DNA from: Candidatus Gastranaerophilales bacterium
GTDB lineage: Bacteria; Cyanobacteriota; Vampirovibrionia; Gastranaerophilales; Gastranaerophilaceae
Direction: 5' to 3'
Assembly (NCBI GenBank): GCA_944324185.1
Contig: CALUVI010000003.1
Location: 1-64,000 of the forward strand
Length of the DNA: 64,000 nucleotides
The notes below the pieces were generated by a model. The model did no database searches. It saw only the letters and a program-made list of their open reading frames with translations, and had not been told where the DNA came from. Below are positions 23,857 to 54,800 of this stretch, piece by piece. The position numbers were made by a program, and so were the translations under genes. Within the stretch, counting starts at the first letter, position 1; each line of letters begins with the position of its first letter.

Positions 23857-25089
23857 ATGAAATATTTGTTCAGAAAAATTATTTATTTTATAAACTTTTT
23901 ATCAAAAATGCCAGACGATGAGTTTCAGCTAAAATTGTTTAGAAACCATATGAGAAAAGTTATTTTTAATAAAGATAACTTATATTTCTTAGATACCTGT
24001 AACAGCAATTGTGCAATAAATGTTCAAAAGACAGATAAGCCGAATATCATGGTTGTAACTCATGATTTTTCAAATACCGGTGCACCAAAAGTTACACTGG
24101 ATTTATGTAAAAAATTAAGAGAAATATATGATGCAAATCTTTATATAATCGGACCGTGTTACGGTGCTTTGAAAGATGAATTTGAAAAATACGGAAAAGT
24201 TTTTTATATAGCAGATTTACCGGCAAAAAAAGATACATTTGCATCTTTTTGTAATAAATTTGATTTAATACTGGTGTCTTCATTATCAAAAGAAATTATA
24301 TCCTGTCTTTATATTTGTAAAGAAAATATTAACACTCCTCTAATTTGGTATACTCATGAGATTCACAATGATATTTTATTTGCAAAGACAGCTATCAAGG
24401 TTTTTGATTCAATTTTATGTGTAAGTCCACCTGTGGAAAAATCTATAAAAAGTATTAATAAAAATGCTAAAACTAAACTGTTAATGTACGGTCTTGATGA
24501 TATAAAAATTCCTGCCTGTTCAGTTAAAAAAGATAAAGTAGTATTTTTATGCATAGGAACTGTTAATAAAAGAAAAAATCAAAAACTTTTTGTTCAGGCG
24601 ATAAAATTGATGCCGGAAAAATTAAGAGAAAAATGTAAATTTTATATAATAGGTTCTCCTGTGCAAAAAGAGGATTTTGTATATGAAACAGAGTTAAAAA
24701 CAATATCATCAGGTATAAAAGAAATCGAATATGTTCCTAACATTCCTCAAAGAGAATTGTTTGAGTATTACAATAAAAGTGATTGTGTTGTTTGTACTTC
24801 AGTTCAGGACCCTCTGCCGATTGTTGTTACTCACGGTTTTATGTTCGGTAAAATTCCTGTTATTTCGAATGTAATAGGGCAGGCACTGTTGTGTGAAAAT
24901 AATAAAAACGCGGTTATTTTTAATTACCGTAATCCGGCTGAATTGTCCGGTATTTTATCGGATATTGCGGAAAATAAGGAAAAATATGAACATATAGCTA
25001 AAAATTCAAGAGAAATCTATGACAAATATTTCTCCATGGAAAGTTTTAAAAATTCCGTTAAAAATATTTTAGATAAATATTTAATTTAG
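23857..25089 (+). CDS. Family 4 glycosyltransferase
   Basis: The 410-residue protein is a GT-B fold transferase. N-terminal half: NIMVVTHDFSNTGAPKVTLDLCKKLRE (the glycine-poor acceptor loop) near residue 65. C-terminal half: VVFLCIGTVNKRKNQKLFVQAIKLMPE near 230, YVPNIPQRELFEYYNKSDCVVCTS near 295 and DPLPIVVTHGFMFGKIPVISN near 320, where PLPIVVTHG replaces the usual E-x7-E motif's first part. Base composition is richer in A/T than the core genes. It opens the glycan island and is convergent with the DUF1796 gene, overlapping it by four bases. Donor and acceptor unknown. Confidence 0.85.
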   Translation: MKYLFRKIIYFINFLSKMPDDEFQLKLFRNHMRKVIFNKDNLYFLDTCNSNCAINVQKTDKPNIMVVTHDFSNTGAPKVTLDLCKKLREIYDANLYIIGPCYGALKDEFEKYGKVFYIADLPAKKDTFASFCNKFDLILVSSLSKEIISCLYICKENINTPLIWYTHEIHNDILFAKTAIKVFDSILCVSPPVEKSIKSINKNAKTKLLMYGLDDIKIPACSVKKDKVVFLCIGTVNKRKNQKLFVQAIKLMPEKLREKCKFYIIGSPVQKEDFVYETELKTISSGIKEIEYVPNIPQRELFEYYNKSDCVVCTSVQDPLPIVVTHGFMFGKIPVISNVIGQALLCENNKNAVIFNYRNPAELSGILSDIAENKEKYEHIAKNSREIYDKYFSMESFKNSVKNILDKYLI

Positions 25090-25844
25090 TTTGCTAAATA
25101 TGTCCTGATTGCTTTTCTAAGTTTTTTAAAAGGTATTAAATTAATTAAATAGTGATATATTATTTTCTGTAGTTTGTAAAACCATAAGTTTTTAATATGA
25201 TATTTTCTAAAAATTAATGTTGAAAGTTCCGTATTTCCCATACATGCGGCAAGAGGCGTACTTTTATCATCACTTTCAATATTGTATATGTATTTGATAA
25301 TATTATCATTTATATGTTTTTTTTCTATGTCTGAAGAATTATGGTTAAAATTGTTTTCAAGAACCGCAATATTTATATTTTTATTTAAAAATTTATTATT
25401 CAATCTGCTTAATGCGTTTTTGAGTGTATCATCAGATAAAACTTTATCTCTGCTAAACCATATAAATAATATATTTTTTGATTTATCAATTAGTTTATAT
25501 AATCTCTTAATTCTTCTGTCATATTTATTTTTTACGAAAGGATATGATTGTTCTAACGTTTGATTTATATCAAAATCATGGTAATAAATAAAACTGTTTC
25601 TTTTGTTGGCATAAGGTGCAAAATTATTACCCGGAGTATTTTGTATATCCATTAAATACAAATCATCAATATTTAAAAAGTTTTCAAAATTATTTATGAT
25701 ACTGTCTATTCTGGTTTCAAACGGAGCGCGGGTAAGCCAGTCAAACGGCAGAGAGACAAATTGAAGATTGTTTTTTCTCAGATAACTCGTACAGGCACAG
25801 TCTTCACCAAGACTTATAAATAAATCATATTTTATTTTTTTCAC
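25086..25844 (-). CDS. DUF1796 family protein (papain-like fold)
   Basis: The 252-residue protein starts with the DUF1796 signature: LFISLGEDCACTSYLRKNNLQFVSLPFDWL. These proteins are predicted papain-like cysteine hydrolases and are often coded in surface-polysaccharide clusters; their reaction is not established. C29-like and H/N residues for a catalytic triad cannot be assigned from this sequence alone. The start is GTG at 25844 with GGAG nine bases upstream, inside the last codons of the upstream GT2 gene (20-base overlap), so the two are translated together. Confidence 0.75.
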   Translation of the reverse strand: MKKIKYDLFISLGEDCACTSYLRKNNLQFVSLPFDWLTRAPFETRIDSIINNFENFLNIDDLYLMDIQNTPGNNFAPYANKRNSFIYYHDFDINQTLEQSYPFVKNKYDRRIKRLYKLIDKSKNILFIWFSRDKVLSDDTLKNALSRLNNKFLNKNINIAVLENNFNHNSSDIEKKHINDNIIKYIYNIESDDKSTPLAACMGNTELSTLIFRKYHIKNLWFYKLQKIIYHYLINLIPFKKLRKAIRTYLAN

Positions 25845-26799
25845 AAATCAGCTCCAGAAAATTGGGTATGGACCTATCAATTGTTACAACACCCTGTTCC
25901 ATTAAAAACTTTCTCATATCTTCATTATAAAGTTTGTCATAATTTTCTTTTAATTCGCCGGATTCGTATTGTTTTATAAGTTTTCTCATATGTACACCGA
26001 ATCCTTCACCAATTAGTTTTAAAGATTCTTTATACCTTTCTACTTTTTTGATTGATTCATTGAAATTTCTTATTGTGTAATGGTACAGAGTAATTTCAGC
26101 CGGTTCTACACAAACTTTATTTCTCATTTTGATATCGTGATTTCCTATAATAATTCTTCTGTATCCCTTTGTTTTATGTATAACTTTGGTACATCCCTGT
26201 GACCCGATGAAACCTTTAAATTCAGGTTTATCAATTATTCCGAGCTTTTGTGCCGCATACTCGTGAAACGGTCTTGTTGCAAAATACGGAGAACTTAGAA
26301 AATCGTCTCTGTTGTCAGGATAATAAAATGTGGAATCTACTTTAAGAACATTGACATTAGTTTTTTTGTACTTTATTATACTTTTCTTCAAATTTAAATC
26401 TTTTGAATAATAAAATTCATCGGCATCTGCGTTTATAATCCAGTCAGCTTTATATTTGCGTTTTGCAAGTTTTATCATTCTGTCAACAAATTTTACCTGA
26501 TTATAAGCAGGGTCTGTTTCATAAATTATTTCAAGAACAAGACCCTCCTTCTTTAATTTTTCCAGAATTTCATTTGTCCTGTCAGTAGAATTATGGCTTG
26601 TTACAATAAACCCGTCGGCTCCCATTTCCTTATGAAAACGAATATTTTTCTCTATAAGATACTCTTCATCTTTTACAAGAAGAGTCATTATGAGTTTTAA
26701 ATCTCGTACACTTTTTTCATACAAATATTTACTAACCCTGTTTCTGGCTTTTCTTGAAATAGGGAACTTTAAAAATGATTTTAATATTCCAGTATCCAT
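25825..26799 (-). CDS. Glycosyltransferase family 2-like protein (GT2_4/GT92 type)
   Basis: This 324-residue protein has the short-type GT-A pattern: LIMTLLVKDEEYLIEKNIRFHKEMGADGFIVTSHNSTDRTNEIL, then WIINADADEFYY near residue 125 with the DxD metal motif (DAD). Members of this family transfer sugars to surface glycans. The C-terminal half is helical and basic. A TGATAAAAT box ends seven bases before the ATG and overlaps the last codons of the upstream fusion gene, so a leaderless internal start is possible within the island operon. Confidence 0.8.
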   Translation of the reverse strand: MDTGILKSFLKFPISRKARNRVSKYLYEKSVRDLKLIMTLLVKDEEYLIEKNIRFHKEMGADGFIVTSHNSTDRTNEILEKLKKEGLVLEIIYETDPAYNQVKFVDRMIKLAKRKYKADWIINADADEFYYSKDLNLKKSIIKYKKTNVNVLKVDSTFYYPDNRDDFLSSPYFATRPFHEYAAQKLGIIDKPEFKGFIGSQGCTKVIHKTKGYRRIIIGNHDIKMRNKVCVEPAEITLYHYTIRNFNESIKKVERYKESLKLIGEGFGVHMRKLIKQYESGELKENYDKLYNEDMRKFLMEQGVVTIDRSIPNFLELICEKNKI

Positions 26800-26806
26800 A
26801 CAACTG

Positions 26807-26815
26807 ATTTTATCA
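26807..26815 (-). promoter_or_regulatory. Extended -10 promoter within the glycan operon, predicted leaderless
   Basis: TGATAAAAT on the minus strand, then CAGTTGT, then ATG at 26799. It overlaps the stop of the upstream gene. Confidence 0.5.
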
Positions 26816-29161
26816 CAAATTTTGTAAATGTTTAATAGCTCCGGAACAATATTTCTTATTATTTTTATATATTTTGTATAAATATTTCCTGTTATTCATT
26901 TTTTCAAAATATTTTTCTTTTCTGAATAAGTTATACATTAATTTATATCTTGTATGTCGGAGTAAATATTTTATGTATGATTTATTGTATAGTTTTTTTT
27001 GTAAAGAAAAATATAACTTTAAGTTTTTAATCTTTTCTTCTTGTTTTTCTTTAGAAACAGTATTCTCCAGACTTTTTTTCAGGTATTCAATACCGTCTTC
27101 TCTTTTTATTTTTATTATTTCATTAACTCTTTGATAATCGATTTTATCGTTGACAATTTTTTCCACATTAATATTTTCAAATGAGTCATATAAACGATTT
27201 TTTATACCGAACATTTCCAGCAGACTTTCCATTCTCTCCATGGTAACTTTATTTTTATTTATACAAATGAAAGGTTTGTTAAATATTATTGCAAAACATA
27301 TTCCGTGAAAACTGTCGGTTATAAACAGGTCGCAATTATTAATTTCTGCAAGCCATTCTTCTACAGGTGTATTAAATGTTACATCTTTTACATTTCCGGT
27401 ATTTATTGCAGGATTTGTCCTTATGAAATTTATTATTTCATTTTTTATTTTTGAATCTATAGTGTAGAAAACAATTTTCGTGTGTATATCTTTTTTATCA
27501 TTAAATAAATTTTCCCACATTGTTTTATCAAGAAGGAAAACAGGGTCAATACTCTGAACGGGATTTTTTATACCGAGACTTTTGCAGTATTCAACACCAT
27601 TAAGCTCCCGTAAAGATAGGCTGTCAAAATTTGAAAGCAATAGTTGAAATATTCTGTCCTGTTTTGAGTTTGATTTTTCCATTTTCATACCAAAACTTGC
27701 AGCATAAGAAAGGATATTTTTATCCGCATCAGCAAATGAAAATAAGAAAGCATCAATGTCAAACTGAATATGCCATGGTCTGAAAACCTGATCAGAACCG
27801 ACTACAAAATTATGAAAGGTTTTATTAAGAGTTTTTAGTTCTTCAAAATTATTTAATTTTACGGTTTCAGGTATATATTTTTTTCTGAAATCATCAAAAT
27901 ATTTATTTTCCGGTTCTTGTGAAACATAAGGCTGACGCAAAGGATAATTAATATTTTGTGCGTTATAACCCGCATCATTTATCTTTTTGTTTAGCGCAAA
28001 AGCAGTCAGTACAGCTCCGAAATTAACATTTTCCCAGTGATAATTCAAAATTGCAACATTTTTCTTTGAACAAAAATTTTTATCCATGGCCTCTTTTATA
28101 CTCATATTATTAACATCTCCCATGAATTCGTCTCTTGAAGGGTGCGGAGCCGGTGGTGCATTGAGGTGTGGAAGACCTTTTCGTACAATATCTACCGGAA
28201 ATTCTTTTAAAAATTGAAAATTATTTTTTATTTTTTCAAAAACTAATCTTGCTTTTTCATTATTAATCAGAACAAGTGATATTCCGTTTTTATTTTTATA
28301 TTTTTTAGGAACTCCCCAGAAATCTGCAATAGTAATATCTCCGACTCTTTTTATACGGGAATACTTACAATCGGAACAACTTTTTCTTAAACTCATATTT
28401 GCAAAAAAGCTTCTGTAATAATCATTTTTATCTGAATTATTTGTAAAAATCTTATTTTCAGTTTTTAAAGACATTACATTATAGTTATTACCCCAGCCGT
28501 CTCTTTTGTCTCTGAAATTTACATCAATAATTTTTTCGCCTCTATAGTTTTCATCAAGATATTTTCTGAATAATTTATAAGGCGGAACACCATGGCATAT
28601 TAAATCAATTATCAGTAAATTGTCATAATCTTTATTTAAAAAATTTTTTAAACCGGCAGCCTGACACGGAGTTCCCGTAAACAAAACCGGACGCCCCTGT
28701 TCAAGATAAGTTTTAATATTTTTAAAAACATTTCCTAATTTACTTTGCAGGTATTTGGAACCCCTGAGTTTTATTAAATCTTCACTGTTATCAACAATAA
28801 TATGTTCAACTTCCATATTACTGTTATATGCAGCACCGCAGACAACACCGTTTTGTTTAAGAATATATTCGGCAATTACGGTAAATACTCCGCCTGACGA
28901 AGATTTATTTAACAATATTTCATCATCCGCATAAGCCCCGTAAGCCTTTTGTTCACCAGTATTAAATTGTTTTCCGGTATTATCCGGACAAACAATTTTG
29001 CACTTGCCGCAATTAATACATTTTATCGCGTCAATTTGCGGATATAAAAATCCCTCTTTATTTTCAACCATTTTAATTGCACCCGAAGGACATGCGTTGT
29101 AACATGCTGTGCATCCTGTACAATTTTCTAATTTACATATATAATTCAAATCTTTTTTCAT
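26813..29161 (-). CDS. Ferredoxin/FrhB-type domain fused to polysaccharide pyruvyl transferase
   Basis: The 782-residue protein joins two enzymes. Residues 10-60 hold two 4Fe-4S motifs (CTGCTACYNACP and CINCGKCKIVCP); 80-330 match the coenzyme F420 hydrogenase/dehydrogenase beta-subunit family, with SSSGGVFT, FTGTPCQAAGLK and ICHGVPP. From about residue 365 a polysaccharide pyruvyl transferase domain follows (NYHWENVNFGAVLTAFAL, VVGSDQVFRPWH, DSFHGICFAI). Such fusions occur in surface-polysaccharide loci. Pyruvyl transferases put ketal pyruvate on sugars; the redox half's partner is unknown. The start used is MKKDLNYIC at 29161; the longer frame adds 18 residues without an SD. The SD is weak. 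Confidence 0.85.
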   Translation of the reverse strand: MKKDLNYICKLENCTGCTACYNACPSGAIKMVENKEGFLYPQIDAIKCINCGKCKIVCPDNTGKQFNTGEQKAYGAYADDEILLNKSSSGGVFTVIAEYILKQNGVVCGAAYNSNMEVEHIIVDNSEDLIKLRGSKYLQSKLGNVFKNIKTYLEQGRPVLFTGTPCQAAGLKNFLNKDYDNLLIIDLICHGVPPYKLFRKYLDENYRGEKIIDVNFRDKRDGWGNNYNVMSLKTENKIFTNNSDKNDYYRSFFANMSLRKSCSDCKYSRIKRVGDITIADFWGVPKKYKNKNGISLVLINNEKARLVFEKIKNNFQFLKEFPVDIVRKGLPHLNAPPAPHPSRDEFMGDVNNMSIKEAMDKNFCSKKNVAILNYHWENVNFGAVLTAFALNKKINDAGYNAQNINYPLRQPYVSQEPENKYFDDFRKKYIPETVKLNNFEELKTLNKTFHNFVVGSDQVFRPWHIQFDIDAFLFSFADADKNILSYAASFGMKMEKSNSKQDRIFQLLLSNFDSLSLRELNGVEYCKSLGIKNPVQSIDPVFLLDKTMWENLFNDKKDIHTKIVFYTIDSKIKNEIINFIRTNPAINTGNVKDVTFNTPVEEWLAEINNCDLFITDSFHGICFAIIFNKPFICINKNKVTMERMESLLEMFGIKNRLYDSFENINVEKIVNDKIDYQRVNEIIKIKREDGIEYLKKSLENTVSKEKQEEKIKNLKLYFSLQKKLYNKSYIKYLLRHTRYKLMYNLFRKEKYFEKMNNRKYLYKIYKNNKKYCSGAIKHLQNL

Positions 29162-29183
29162 ACAGCTTTTTTGATTTATGAAA

Positions 29184-29202
29184 CATAACAAAATATACAA
29201 AA
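29184..29202. repeat. Third copy of the 19-base CATAACAAAATATACAAAA motif
   Basis: It matches the first 19 bases of the inverted repeat at 29294 in the same orientation, then diverges (CGGTGC). It lies 23 bases before the FrhB-fusion start. Confidence 0.8.
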
Positions 29203-29293
29203 CGGTGCTACGCACGTAAACCTTTGTACGGCACTTTTAGTAAAATTTCCAAACATTATTTTTTCAATTCCACACCCGCCTTTTAGTCTCCTG

Positions 29294-29431
29294 CATAACA
29301 AAATATACAAAATGTTATGGGTTCAGTATCTACAATATCATGAAGCCGTTTTTATATCAATAAAAAATTTTTTCATCAGCCGAAAAGGTACATTATAAGA
29401 ATATCCATAACATTTTGTATATTTTGTTATG
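29294..29431. repeat. Perfect 27-base inverted repeats enclosing an 84-base segment with a promoter-like site
   Basis: 29294-29320 and 29405-29431 are exact reverse complements and each is itself a partial palindrome (CATAAC...GTTATG). The enclosed segment, read toward the fusion gene (minus strand), contains TTGATA, 17 bases, TATTGT, a good -35/-10 pair. It lies in the only long gap of the minus-strand glycan genes, between the GT2 gene at 29473 and the fusion gene. The layout fits an invertible promoter or a large operator. Confidence 0.7.
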
Positions 29432-29472
29432 GATTTGAAAAATTTTTATAAAAATTTATAACAATTATTTAA

Positions 29473-30270
29473 CTATTCCAAACCTTCCTTGATGTAATTT
29501 TTGATATCTCTTATTAAATTAGACCGTTTGTGTTCCCAAATCCATTTGCCCAGCGGGTGTTTTTTGTAGAAATATATCCGGTTTCTTTCGTAAATATCTT
29601 TGCTTATTTGAGAGCTTGTTGTGCTGTGGTTGTGGAATACAAAAGAAATGTTTGAAGTTGCGAGGCTGAATCCCGCATATAAAGCTCTCAGGCAATAATC
29701 CTGGTCTTCCCAGAATGCAGGTGTAAAGTTTTCGTCCATCAGCCCGATTTTTTCTATAACTTCGCGTTTAACAATTACACAGCTGAATAAAGGTTCAAGC
29801 ATGTATTTATACGGCTCTTTAAAACGTTTTAGATATTCTTTGTAGTGCATAATATAATTGTCAGCGGTTAATTTCTTTTTGAAGAATTTTCTTCTTCCGG
29901 CATCACGCGGAGAAACCATCCCGAGCTGGGAATCGTATTCAAAAATTCTTATTGCGTTTTCAAGCCATTCAGGAGTAAACAAAATATCGTTATTCAAAAG
30001 TCCGATGTATTCATAATCAGATTTCAGAGCAAGTTCAATTCCCTGATTATTTGCTTTTGAATACCCTAAGTTTTCATTATTGTATATAACTTTGAGGTTT
30101 GAATGCTCTTTTTCAAACTCTTTTAAGTATTCTGTCGTTCCGTCGGTTGAATTGTTATCAATCACAATCAGGTCAAAAGAGTCCGTATATTTGTATATTG
30201 AATCCAAAAACGGTTTTGTTGCTTGCTCAAATTTATTATATACAGGTGTAATTATTACTGTTTTGTTCAT
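29473..30270 (-). CDS. Family 2 glycosyltransferase (rhamnosyltransferase-like)
   Basis: The 265-residue protein is a classic GT2: VIITPVYNKFEQATKPFLDSI, then LIVIDNNSTDGTTEYL near residue 35, NNENLGYSKANNQGIELA near 65, GLLNNDILFTPEWLE near 93 (the DxD-like NND), and the acceptor/catalytic FWEDQDYCLRALYAGF near 190 with ED. This pattern is that of WbbL-type rhamnosyltransferases. A CGGAGAAAC site precedes the ATG. It lies upstream of the 29294-29431 inverted repeat. The gap 30271-30507 upstream holds only repeats. Confidence 0.85.
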   Translation of the reverse strand: MNKTVIITPVYNKFEQATKPFLDSIYKYTDSFDLIVIDNNSTDGTTEYLKEFEKEHSNLKVIYNNENLGYSKANNQGIELALKSDYEYIGLLNNDILFTPEWLENAIRIFEYDSQLGMVSPRDAGRRKFFKKKLTADNYIMHYKEYLKRFKEPYKYMLEPLFSCVIVKREVIEKIGLMDENFTPAFWEDQDYCLRALYAGFSLATSNISFVFHNHSTTSSQISKDIYERNRIYFYKKHPLGKWIWEHKRSNLIRDIKNYIKEGLE

Positions 30271-30309
30271 TTTGTTTCTCCGGAATTTATTTAGTTAATG
30301 AAGATTATT

Positions 30310-30507
30310 GTCAAGCAATGCCTGCCATGCGTTTCTTAATTGTAACATGTAATGTCTGATATTGAAACCAATTTACCCATTTGAATGACAGCAAATTGTG
30401 CCGGTATTATAATTTTCCAATTTGCCGTCATTCAGTTAGTAGTTAGTAGTGTGGAGCAAGCTCCACAAAAGTTATTGTTGGGCTTCACCTAACCTATATT
30501 TATATTC
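30310..30507. repeat. Repeats A and B with REP-like remnant
   Basis: GTCAAGCAATGCCTGCC (30310) is a diverged type B hairpin; TTGAATGACAGCAAATTG and CAATTTGCCGTCATTCAG enclose a 30-base gap (30380-30435); the type A palindrome GTAGTGTGGAGCAAGCTCCAC is at 30446-30468, followed by type B (GTTATTGTTGGGCTTCACCTAACC). No gene is seen. Confidence 0.75.
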
Positions 30508-31392
30508 TCACTCGCTCACCCGCAAGTTTACTATCCAATCATAGTAACTCTTTCCGCTTGTTTTGTCAGTTAGCGTTTTATAAGTCAATTTATGTATTGC
30601 ACATTTTGATATCAATTTTTCCCACTCAACCTGATTAAAATCTTCAAACATAATTCTCTGAAGCTGTCCGGAAATCTCTCCGTCTAAGTATGGCATTTTA
30701 TCCCACTCGGCTTTAAGTTCCGGAGTTTTGTCAGATAGAATTGTTGACAGGTGTTCAAACATAAAATAATTTATAAGAAAATCATTTTCATCCCAGTATT
30801 TTTCTATTGCCCGTTTTATTGCCTGCAAATTAGGACTTCCCTTTTTTGCTCGGATAAAATAACAGGACATTTTATTTTCCTGTAAGTCAGTAATTGGGTC
30901 TTTTTGAAACACACAAAAATCCGATTTCCAAACCTCCTGCGGAATTTTGTCCGTGAGATAAATGGTAGAATCAACCCAGCAGCCGCCGTATTTTTTCAGA
31001 AGGTTAAGCCTCAAAATATCGCTGAATATTGCAATCGGAATCTTTTTGGCTTTCAAAAGCTCATAATACTTTTGCGGGAGTTCAACATAATCTTTTATTG
31101 TCTCAAAGCTTAAGACATTGATTTTTTTATCACTCTCATATTTTTGAACGCTTTCAAAACATTTTTGAATCAACAAAGGTGCGTTTTCCCTGCCCTGATG
31201 CCAGTATTGCCAGATAATTTCCTCATCTTGCCCGTTTGGTTTTTCAAACGGAAAACTTATTGCATAATCGGCATATTTCTTTAAATCCTTCTTAATCTGA
31301 CGTGCTTTTATACGGCTTCTCTTTTCTCTGTTGAAAATAAAAAGCTCAATAAAAATTTTAAAAAGACTGTTTTTTAGTTTTAACAAACTCAT
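30508..31392 (-). CDS. Capsular polysaccharide synthesis protein (Caps_synth, GT32-like)
   Basis: The 294-residue protein matches the Caps_synth family of GT-A glycosyltransferases: EEIIWQYWHQGRENAPLLIQKCFESV near residue 57, then PIAIFSDILRLNLLKKYGGCWVDSTIYLT near 120, which carries the metal-binding DxT-type acidic motif and the GG loop typical of DXD sugar-binding enzymes. It is a cytoplasmic enzyme with a hydrophobic, basic N terminus. The start ATG overlaps the stop of the GT8 gene (ATGA), so they are translationally coupled. Confidence 0.85.
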   Translation of the reverse strand: MSLLKLKNSLFKIFIELFIFNREKRSRIKARQIKKDLKKYADYAISFPFEKPNGQDEEIIWQYWHQGRENAPLLIQKCFESVQKYESDKKINVLSFETIKDYVELPQKYYELLKAKKIPIAIFSDILRLNLLKKYGGCWVDSTIYLTDKIPQEVWKSDFCVFQKDPITDLQENKMSCYFIRAKKGSPNLQAIKRAIEKYWDENDFLINYFMFEHLSTILSDKTPELKAEWDKMPYLDGEISGQLQRIMFEDFNQVEWEKLISKCAIHKLTYKTLTDKTSGKSYYDWIVNLRVSE

Positions 31393-44114: not shown

Positions 44115-44169
44115 CATCAACTTTTGATTATAAGCAAAGGGAGGAGGGGTGAATGGATTTGGCAGTTAA

Positions 44170-44272
44170 GTAGTGTGGAGCTTGCTCCACAAAATATAAT
44201 GCTTGTGGAGCAAGCTCCACACTACTACTTTACTTATTTAGTTATTGTCAGGCTGAAGCCAGACCTATTTAC
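44170..44272. repeat. Foldback of two type A repeats, then type B
   Basis: GTAGTGTGGAGCTTGCTCCAC and GTGGAGCAAGCTCCACACTAC are inverted around AAAATATAATGCTT (44170-44225). TATTGTCAGGCTGAAGCCAGACC (type B) follows. Confidence 0.85.
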
Positions 44273-44385: not shown

Positions 44386-44530
44386 CTGAGGTAATAAAAT
44401 TGCAGACAGGGTTTACTAACCCCCTCCCTAACCCTCCCCGTTGGAGAGGGAACGTGCTTGCGTCGTTCAACTAACGCGTATCCCCCGCGTCCATTTTAAG
44501 AGGCAGTAGTGTGGAGCTTGCTCCGCAAGA
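44386..44530. repeat. Type C and A repeats joined to the tRNA remnant
   Basis: GAGGTAATAAAATTGCAGACAGGG, then TTACTAACCCCCTCCCTAACCC and AGGGAACGTGCTTGCGTCG, AACGCGTATCCCCC (type C, 44388-44490), then type A at 44506-44530. It is about 85 percent like 42009-42163 by eye. Confidence 0.85.
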
Positions 44531-54399: not shown

Positions 54400-54800
54400 G
54401 GATTCATTTTATTCAATTATCAAATTTTACCTGTTTAAATGCAGGTCGGTTTAGTAAAACCGGCATTAGCTTTTTCAGATTGTATGATGATTTCGCCGGA
54501 ATATAAAAGTTATTGTCGGGCTGAAGCGCGACCTATATTTCTAAATTATCATGTACAGTGAAGTAGTGAAGTAGTGTGGAGCTTGCTCCACAAATATTTA
54601 AATTATTTAAAAATGTTTAAATTTTACACAATACCTGTGGAGCAAGCTCCACACTACGGACTACAAAGGGACGAGAGGTACGCGTCAATTGAACAACGCA
54701 AGCACGTTCCCTCTCCGGCGGGGAGGGTTAGGGAGGGGGGTAAACTCAACCGGCAATTTTATTACCTCAATCACTCAGTCACTCAGTTACCGGCAAGAGA
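54400..54800. repeat. Repeats B, A, C and D between prmA and aroB
   Basis: Type B (TATTGTCGGGCTGAAGCGCGACC) at 54508; an inverted pair of type A (54571-54593 and 54636-54657) around 40 bases of AT-rich sequence; type C in reverse orientation at 54668-54772 (CGTCAATTGAACAACGCAAGCACG, then GGGTTAGGGAGG); type D at 54769-54790. No gene other than a spurious frame is seen. Confidence 0.85.

Follow-up and report, generated by a model that had tools for sequence, protein, structure and literature searches.

We find that a 138-bp unit at positions 29294-29431 of the window (the 64,000-nt stretch of DNA analysed here, from contig C3 of a Candidatus Gastranaerophilales bacterium) is, with high probability, an inverton, which a tyrosine recombinase of ~180 amino acids encoded in trans would flip, thereby switching the promoter of an FrhB operon. 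This invertible-promoter reading had been put forward in an initial annotation of the sequence, and it is now strongly supported by a family of loci, not by the window copy alone. At other loci of this family, the reversal of a segment between orthologues and the branch points of contigs argue for the existence of both orientations, and we infer that the window copy itself also flips.

In the mechanism that we propose, the recombinase, whose gene lies on contig C59, would bind each 26-bp site at its inverted arms of ~10 bp, pair the two sites and exchange strands across their ~6-bp core (TATACA/TGTATA), and the 84-bp spacer between the sites would flip reversibly. In the ON orientation, promoter sequences within the spacer would face the operon encoding the FrhB-pyruvyltransferase, a glycosyltransferase and a DUF1796 protein, and in the OFF orientation the inverted promoters would be directed at the 3′ end of the glycosyltransferase gene that lies upstream. 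Besides the window copy, at least five loci of this genome would be served by the same enzyme. By means of the window switch and similar ones, cells in one population can very probably differ in their surfaces.

The inverted repeats and their surroundings

The unit is bounded by a left, gene-proximal recombination site (29294-29320, plus strand) and its exact inverted partner, the right, gene-distal site (29405-29431, minus strand), which together enclose a predicted invertible spacer of 84 bp (29321-29404). These positions and lengths agree with the two exact 27-base inverted repeats, 84 bases apart, of the initial annotation. At 27 bp, this is the longest exact inverted repeat in the window for spacers of 20-300 bases; the next-longest (24 and 22 bp) both come from another repeat, and the longest per simulated window measured 0-16 bp in 30 first-order Markov simulations. 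The arms had also been described as partly palindromic, and each is indeed a quasi-palindrome (CATAACA-N12-TGTTATG), in which two arms of ~10-11 bp flank a 6-bp core. The left 26-bp site (29294-29319) reads CATAACAAAA-TATACA-AAATGTTATG, to which the repeat adds 1 bp, and the right 26-bp site corresponds to 29406-29431; both belong to the site family described below. The window copy was assembled through in one orientation on contig C3. The exact 26-mer had no match in the genome_contigs and viral_contigs collections, from which records near the window's genome were left out, and a search of positions 28000-31000 gave no meaningful Rfam match. Several palindromic REP-like repeats (GTAGTGTGGAGCTTGCTCCACA) also occur in the window, at 44169-44226, 44505-44524, 54571-54592 and 54636-54657.

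The segment is intergenic and sits between the 3′ end of a family-2 glycosyltransferase gene (29473-30270, minus strand; Pfam), which the promoter would face in the OFF orientation, and the start of a gene for an FrhB/FdhB-polysaccharide pyruvyltransferase fusion (26813-29161, minus strand, ATG at 29161; Pfam PF04422, PF04432 and PF04230), the start codon of which lies 132 bp away. The fusion gene is the first of the operon; a family 2/92 glycosyltransferase gene (25825-26799, minus strand; Pfam) follows after a gap of 13 bp, and a gene for a DUF1796 papain-like protein (25086-25844, minus strand; Pfam) comes third, with an overlap of 20 bp. In its repeats and short segment, the unit falls within the range of the invertons described from gut bacteria, the repeats of which measure 10-40 nt (PMC11892184).

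A partial third site (29184-29202, plus strand) is oriented as the left one. The initial annotation had listed a 19-base third copy at 29184, and an exact copy is present there, but it amounts to only a half-site plus core: the left arm, the core and 3 bp are retained, and the right arm is missing. At locus C4 of the window's own genome (G000; 1.97 Mb in 67 contigs) a full third site occurs in an arrangement like that of the window. Such third sites possibly allow alternative inversions or deletions at both loci.

The partial third site is located just downstream of a member of a dispersed structured repeat of ~90 nt (29203-29290, minus strand), which would form part of the leader of the ON transcript. 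This repeat ends in CTACGTGCGTAGCAC and was found in 46 of the 65 genomes of our genus set (G000 and 64 others), with the control almost at zero; G000 has 10 copies, among them those on contigs C52, C11, C15, C18 and C65, and other genomes have up to 25. Its 7-bp stem carries compensatory substitutions, with five pairs doubly changed and all four pair types represented at one position. In two genomes (G077 and G007) it forms tandem arrays with a unit of ~108-112 bp. Genomes that lack the switches have it as well, and it can lie in either orientation relative to genes, for example between rpsH and rplF. An Rfam search with the leader copy and the dispersed copies gave only low scores, below the gathering scores.

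Related sites, adjacent genes and candidate promoters

When flanking DNA was used as the query against the genus, distant repeat fragments came to light elsewhere, and these led to a new definition of the site, the 26-bp quasi-palindrome CATAACAWWWT-RTAY-AWWWTGTTATG. With up to three mismatches, this pattern matches G000 12 times and its reversed control not once. With up to two, 5 to 10 sites were found in each of six genomes (control 0), namely G000 and five of the 64 others (G028, G075, G078, G084 and G085; 5-9 sites each). A variant form (CACAACAAAATATATATTTTGTTGTG) accounts for four sites in G065, one match each was found in five further genomes, and none in the rest, the reversed-pattern control being zero throughout. 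When 383 genomes from the order were searched with one mismatch allowed, more than one site was found only in the drawn members of the site-bearing group. Several copies of the variant palindrome CACAACAAAATATATATTTTGTTGTG lie on contigs C132, C293 and C324 of G065, a genome in which the small recombinase shows only 50% identity.

Sites occur at six loci of G000, on contigs C3 (the window), C4, C7, C9, C11 and C41; all are inverted pairs, 136-203 bp overall, except the one on C11. Outside the window, the paired segments lie at C4:35781-35983, C7:6874-7009, C9:46358-46548 and C41:7490-7679. Only a single site is recognisable at this locus and at two in G075 (C1 and C24). At G084:C4:163565-163711 (L121), two identical sites with the core TGAACA stand in direct orientation and would delete, not invert, the intervening DNA. 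The single-site loci and this direct pair may be decayed or different systems. Contig C75 of G007 starts exactly with a related quasi-palindrome (positions 1-26, L210), directly before a nucleotidyltransferase-like gene, and is possibly another switch broken in assembly. Four switches (G000:C9, G000:C41, G028:C20 and G085:C4; L107, L108, L118 and L124) have homologous spacers, with 72-84% identity; since homologous spacers also occur at separate loci of the same genome, switch cassettes have apparently been duplicated.

The genes beside the switches, named from their translated sequences (Pfam was used only for the window), encode glycosyltransferases at C4 and its relatives and at G028:C3, the flagellar cap protein FliD at G028:C20, G028:C158 and G078:C4, a transporter-like protein at the C9 switch, and small proteins of unknown role at others.

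The window copy contains two candidate promoters, both facing the operon and matching 9-10 of 12 promoter positions. The first, TTGATA-N17-TATTGT (29332-29360, minus strand, read from 29360 to 29332), has a TG before its -10 element and is the -35/-10 pair of the initial annotation; the pair is confirmed on the minus strand and, in the assembled orientation, is directed at the FrhB gene, but its sequence is weak, agreeing with the consensus at 9 of 12 positions only. The second, TATACA-N18-TATAAT (29392-29421, minus strand, read from 29421 to 29392), also faces the FrhB gene, with its -35 element inside the right site. Because the region is so AT-rich, matches of this quality are expected by chance, and their number (4 in this region, compared to 3.2 ± 1.8 in shuffles) does not exceed that expectation. 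Since both candidates face the operon, the assembled orientation of the window switch would be ON, and the window promoter is predicted to drive the operon.

The segment may, of course, invert and yet switch no promoter, carrying instead, for example, a terminator or leader structure placed between an outside promoter and the operon. The weakness of the window promoter and the structured repeat that follows the window switch would suit such an arrangement, as would two of the fliD loci (G028:C158 and G078:C4), where a good promoter-like sequence (GGGGTTCACA...TATAAT) stands outside the two sites, directed through the segment. At five other loci (G000:C9, G000:C41, G028:C20, G084:C2 and G084:C6), however, a strong promoter (TTCACA-N16/17-TATAAT) is situated within the segment, and the stretch 29100-29560 of the window holds no terminator-like sequence. 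We consider a switch of this kind unlikely and favour an invertible promoter.

A candidate recombinase and the evidence for recombination

According to the initial annotation, no invertase gene lies in the window, and contig C3 indeed has no match to PF00589 or PF00239. A recombinase sought elsewhere in the genome was found on another contig, in the form of a 180-aa tyrosine recombinase (G000:C59:6946-7485; PF00589 at 2.2e-27). It is one of five PF00589 genes in G000, which encode XerC, XerD, a 417-aa integrase (the gene of which adjoins one for a predicted DNA-binding protein) and two proteins of ~180 aa that consist of the catalytic domain only. Among all 65 genomes, orthologues of the C59 protein with 76-82% identity are present in exactly the five other site-pair genomes, with identities elsewhere of at most 69%, and the presumed catalytic residues (R40, K63/K64, H128-x-x-R131, H154 and Y163) are invariant in the six orthologues. 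Across the genus, such small catalytic-domain recombinases of ~180 aa are diverse. In a tree built from 22 of them (nine genomes), one clade (support 99/99) unites a single member per genome from all six site-pair genomes, and the three site-less genomes are absent from it.

In a XerC tree, the six site-pair genomes are related, and because of this clustering the co-occurrence does not amount to 65 independent observations. Two genomes that have neither the enzyme nor the site pairs (G074 and G002) fall among them, which implies that enzyme and sites disappeared, or were acquired, in concert on at least one occasion. No recognisable site pair was found beside the C59 gene, and its product would thus act in trans. 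On the strength of its co-occurrence with the sites, on which it is presumed to act, the C59 enzyme is the likely invertase.

Another recombinase of this genome, be it XerC/XerD, the C11 paralogue or the integrase, might act on the family sites instead, given that five PF00589 genes are available and that two arms around a 6-bp core are also the architecture of Xer sites. Yet nearly every genome of the genus has XerC, whether or not sites are present, the C11 paralogue has a neighbouring inverted pair of its own with a different arm (TTTAACCATTTTGTAAG), and only the C59 clade matches the phylogenetic profile of the sites. XerC and the C11 paralogue were both rejected as the invertase, and the involvement of an enzyme other than that of C59 appears improbable.

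Private inverted pairs, 130-190 bp apart and with arms unlike those of the window, adjoin genes for other small tyrosine recombinases (G000:C11:1081-1256, L111; G085:C19:1148-1316, L170; G074:C11:1250-1426, L172; G065:C61:2067-2288, L144). These are probably local invertons, and the position of the pairs beside the genes supports the notion that small recombinases are invertases with private sites. A serine recombinase was considered and rejected: the only PF00239 match in G000 is a 539-aa open frame on contig C23, of the large type by its size, and no small serine recombinase of the Hin/Mpi kind was found in this genome.

The sites themselves show features expected under recombination. Their arms are common to all loci and the central six bases vary (TGTATA, TCTATA, TATCTA, TTTATA, TATTTA and TGTACA), but in 19 of the 21 pairs the core is the exact reverse complement of that of its partner; with shuffled partners, the mean was 5.0 and the maximum 12 in 20,000 shuffles. 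Tyrosine recombinases require identity of the crossover core between partner sites, and cores that match within a locus and differ between loci are therefore as expected of recombination crossover sites.

Moreover, a comparison of G000:C41 with the orthologous G085:C4 revealed that both flanks are collinear (82-92%), whereas 192 bp including the sites align in reverse (82%), and the strong promoter TTCACA-N16-TATAAT (GGGGTTCACA...TATAAT), which points toward the gene in one genome, has the opposite direction in the other. Contigs C35 and C30 of G075 share 77 identical bases, located at the end of C35, which stops at the final base of a site, and at the start of C30, which runs on through the inverted pair; in G078, contig C7 ends and contig C39 begins exactly at the inner edge of a site, with a matching rare core (ATCT/AGAT). 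De Bruijn assembly breaks in this manner when a flank plus site has two different continuations. From these contig ends at inner site edges we infer that both orientations were present among the reads of the relatives, chance coincidence being very unlikely.

These observations also bear on the alternative, raised in the initial annotation, that the repeats form a large operator, that is, paired operators for a dimeric regulator that acts by DNA looping or cooperative repression and with no recombination. The sites are AT-rich and quasi-palindromic, lie upstream of genes and have a spacing of 110-190 bp, as such operators could; nevertheless, a regulator needs neither locus-matched 6-bp cores nor an inverted orientation of its sites, and the operator reading leaves the reversed orthologous segment, the contig ends at inner site edges and the co-occurrence with the recombinase unexplained, which makes it very improbable. 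Least probable is a miniature inverted-repeat transposon (MITE) with the repeats as its ends, which would fit a compact unit with terminal inverted repeats, several dispersed loci and the four homologous spacers, but not a window spacer without relatives among the other loci, a unit that is not multicopy (the exact 19-mer was found at the window locus only), or ends that match within a locus and differ between loci, a pattern opposite to that of copies of a single transposon.

Comparison with known invertible systems

Returning to inversion by the C59 enzyme, we give roughly even weight to a broader reading, in which several Gastranaerophilales species would each possess one miniature recombinase that acts in trans on a regulon of about six switches (glycan operons, fliD, transporters and small proteins), with the switches insulated from one another by their own matched cores, and in which the loci with a third site (the window and C4) could have more than two states. 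Cores matched in this locus-specific way point to a means by which a single enzyme can serve several switches without joining different loci.

Gastranaerophilales are common gut members and non-photosynthetic relatives of cyanobacteria. In a survey of 209 datasets (203 bacterial, from 13 phyla), the bacterial phyla with inversion-positive species numbered six and did not include a cyanobacterial one, and our literature search, which was short on subscription journals and preprints, found no report of phase variation by DNA inversion in Gastranaerophilales/Melainabacteria. The present analysis identifies a specific candidate enzyme, along with its sites in six species, and so supplies the two halves of a system that can be tested; genes for surface glycans and the flagellar cap protein are among the targets. 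The window system would join the known RecV- and Fim-like invertons, in a lineage for which we found no such report.

Among known systems, promoter inversion ahead of polysaccharide genes is shared with the capsule loci of Bacteroides, in which an enzyme acting in trans (Mpi and others) inverts promoters at several loci. Mpi is a serine recombinase, whereas G000 has only a serine recombinase of the large type, and the matching core of its sites is 6 bp long. FimB/FimE, which act on fimS, and the C59 enzyme are both small tyrosine recombinases with no domain other than the catalytic one. Against the NCBIfam models for tyrosine-type DNA invertases (NF007371 and NF007370), the C59 protein scores 43 and 33 bits, far below their cut-offs of 222 and 221, and it is by score closer to the catalytic domains of XerA/XerD; membership in the FimB/FimE family was thus rejected. 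Furthermore, the fim recombinases adjoin their switch, whereas the C59 enzyme would serve many loci and adjoins none of those examined.

The closest parallel in mechanism is offered by RecV of Clostridioides difficile, a tyrosine recombinase that acts in trans on scattered flagellar, surface and signalling switches, some of which need other recombinases (PMC5903667). As at the flagellar, cwpV and other C. difficile loci, one tyrosine recombinase would serve several loci in trans, and this likeness of RecV and the C59 enzyme is one of proposed mechanism; the phylum and the site sequence differ. The switches are similar in size, as the C. difficile pdcB switch measures 174 bp and has imperfect 19-bp repeats (PMC9286219), compared to 136-203 bp in G000, where, however, the sites are 26 bp long. 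What sets the family described here apart from the RecV switches is the architecture of two arms around a 6-bp core, with a locus-specific matching of cores that is clear across species.
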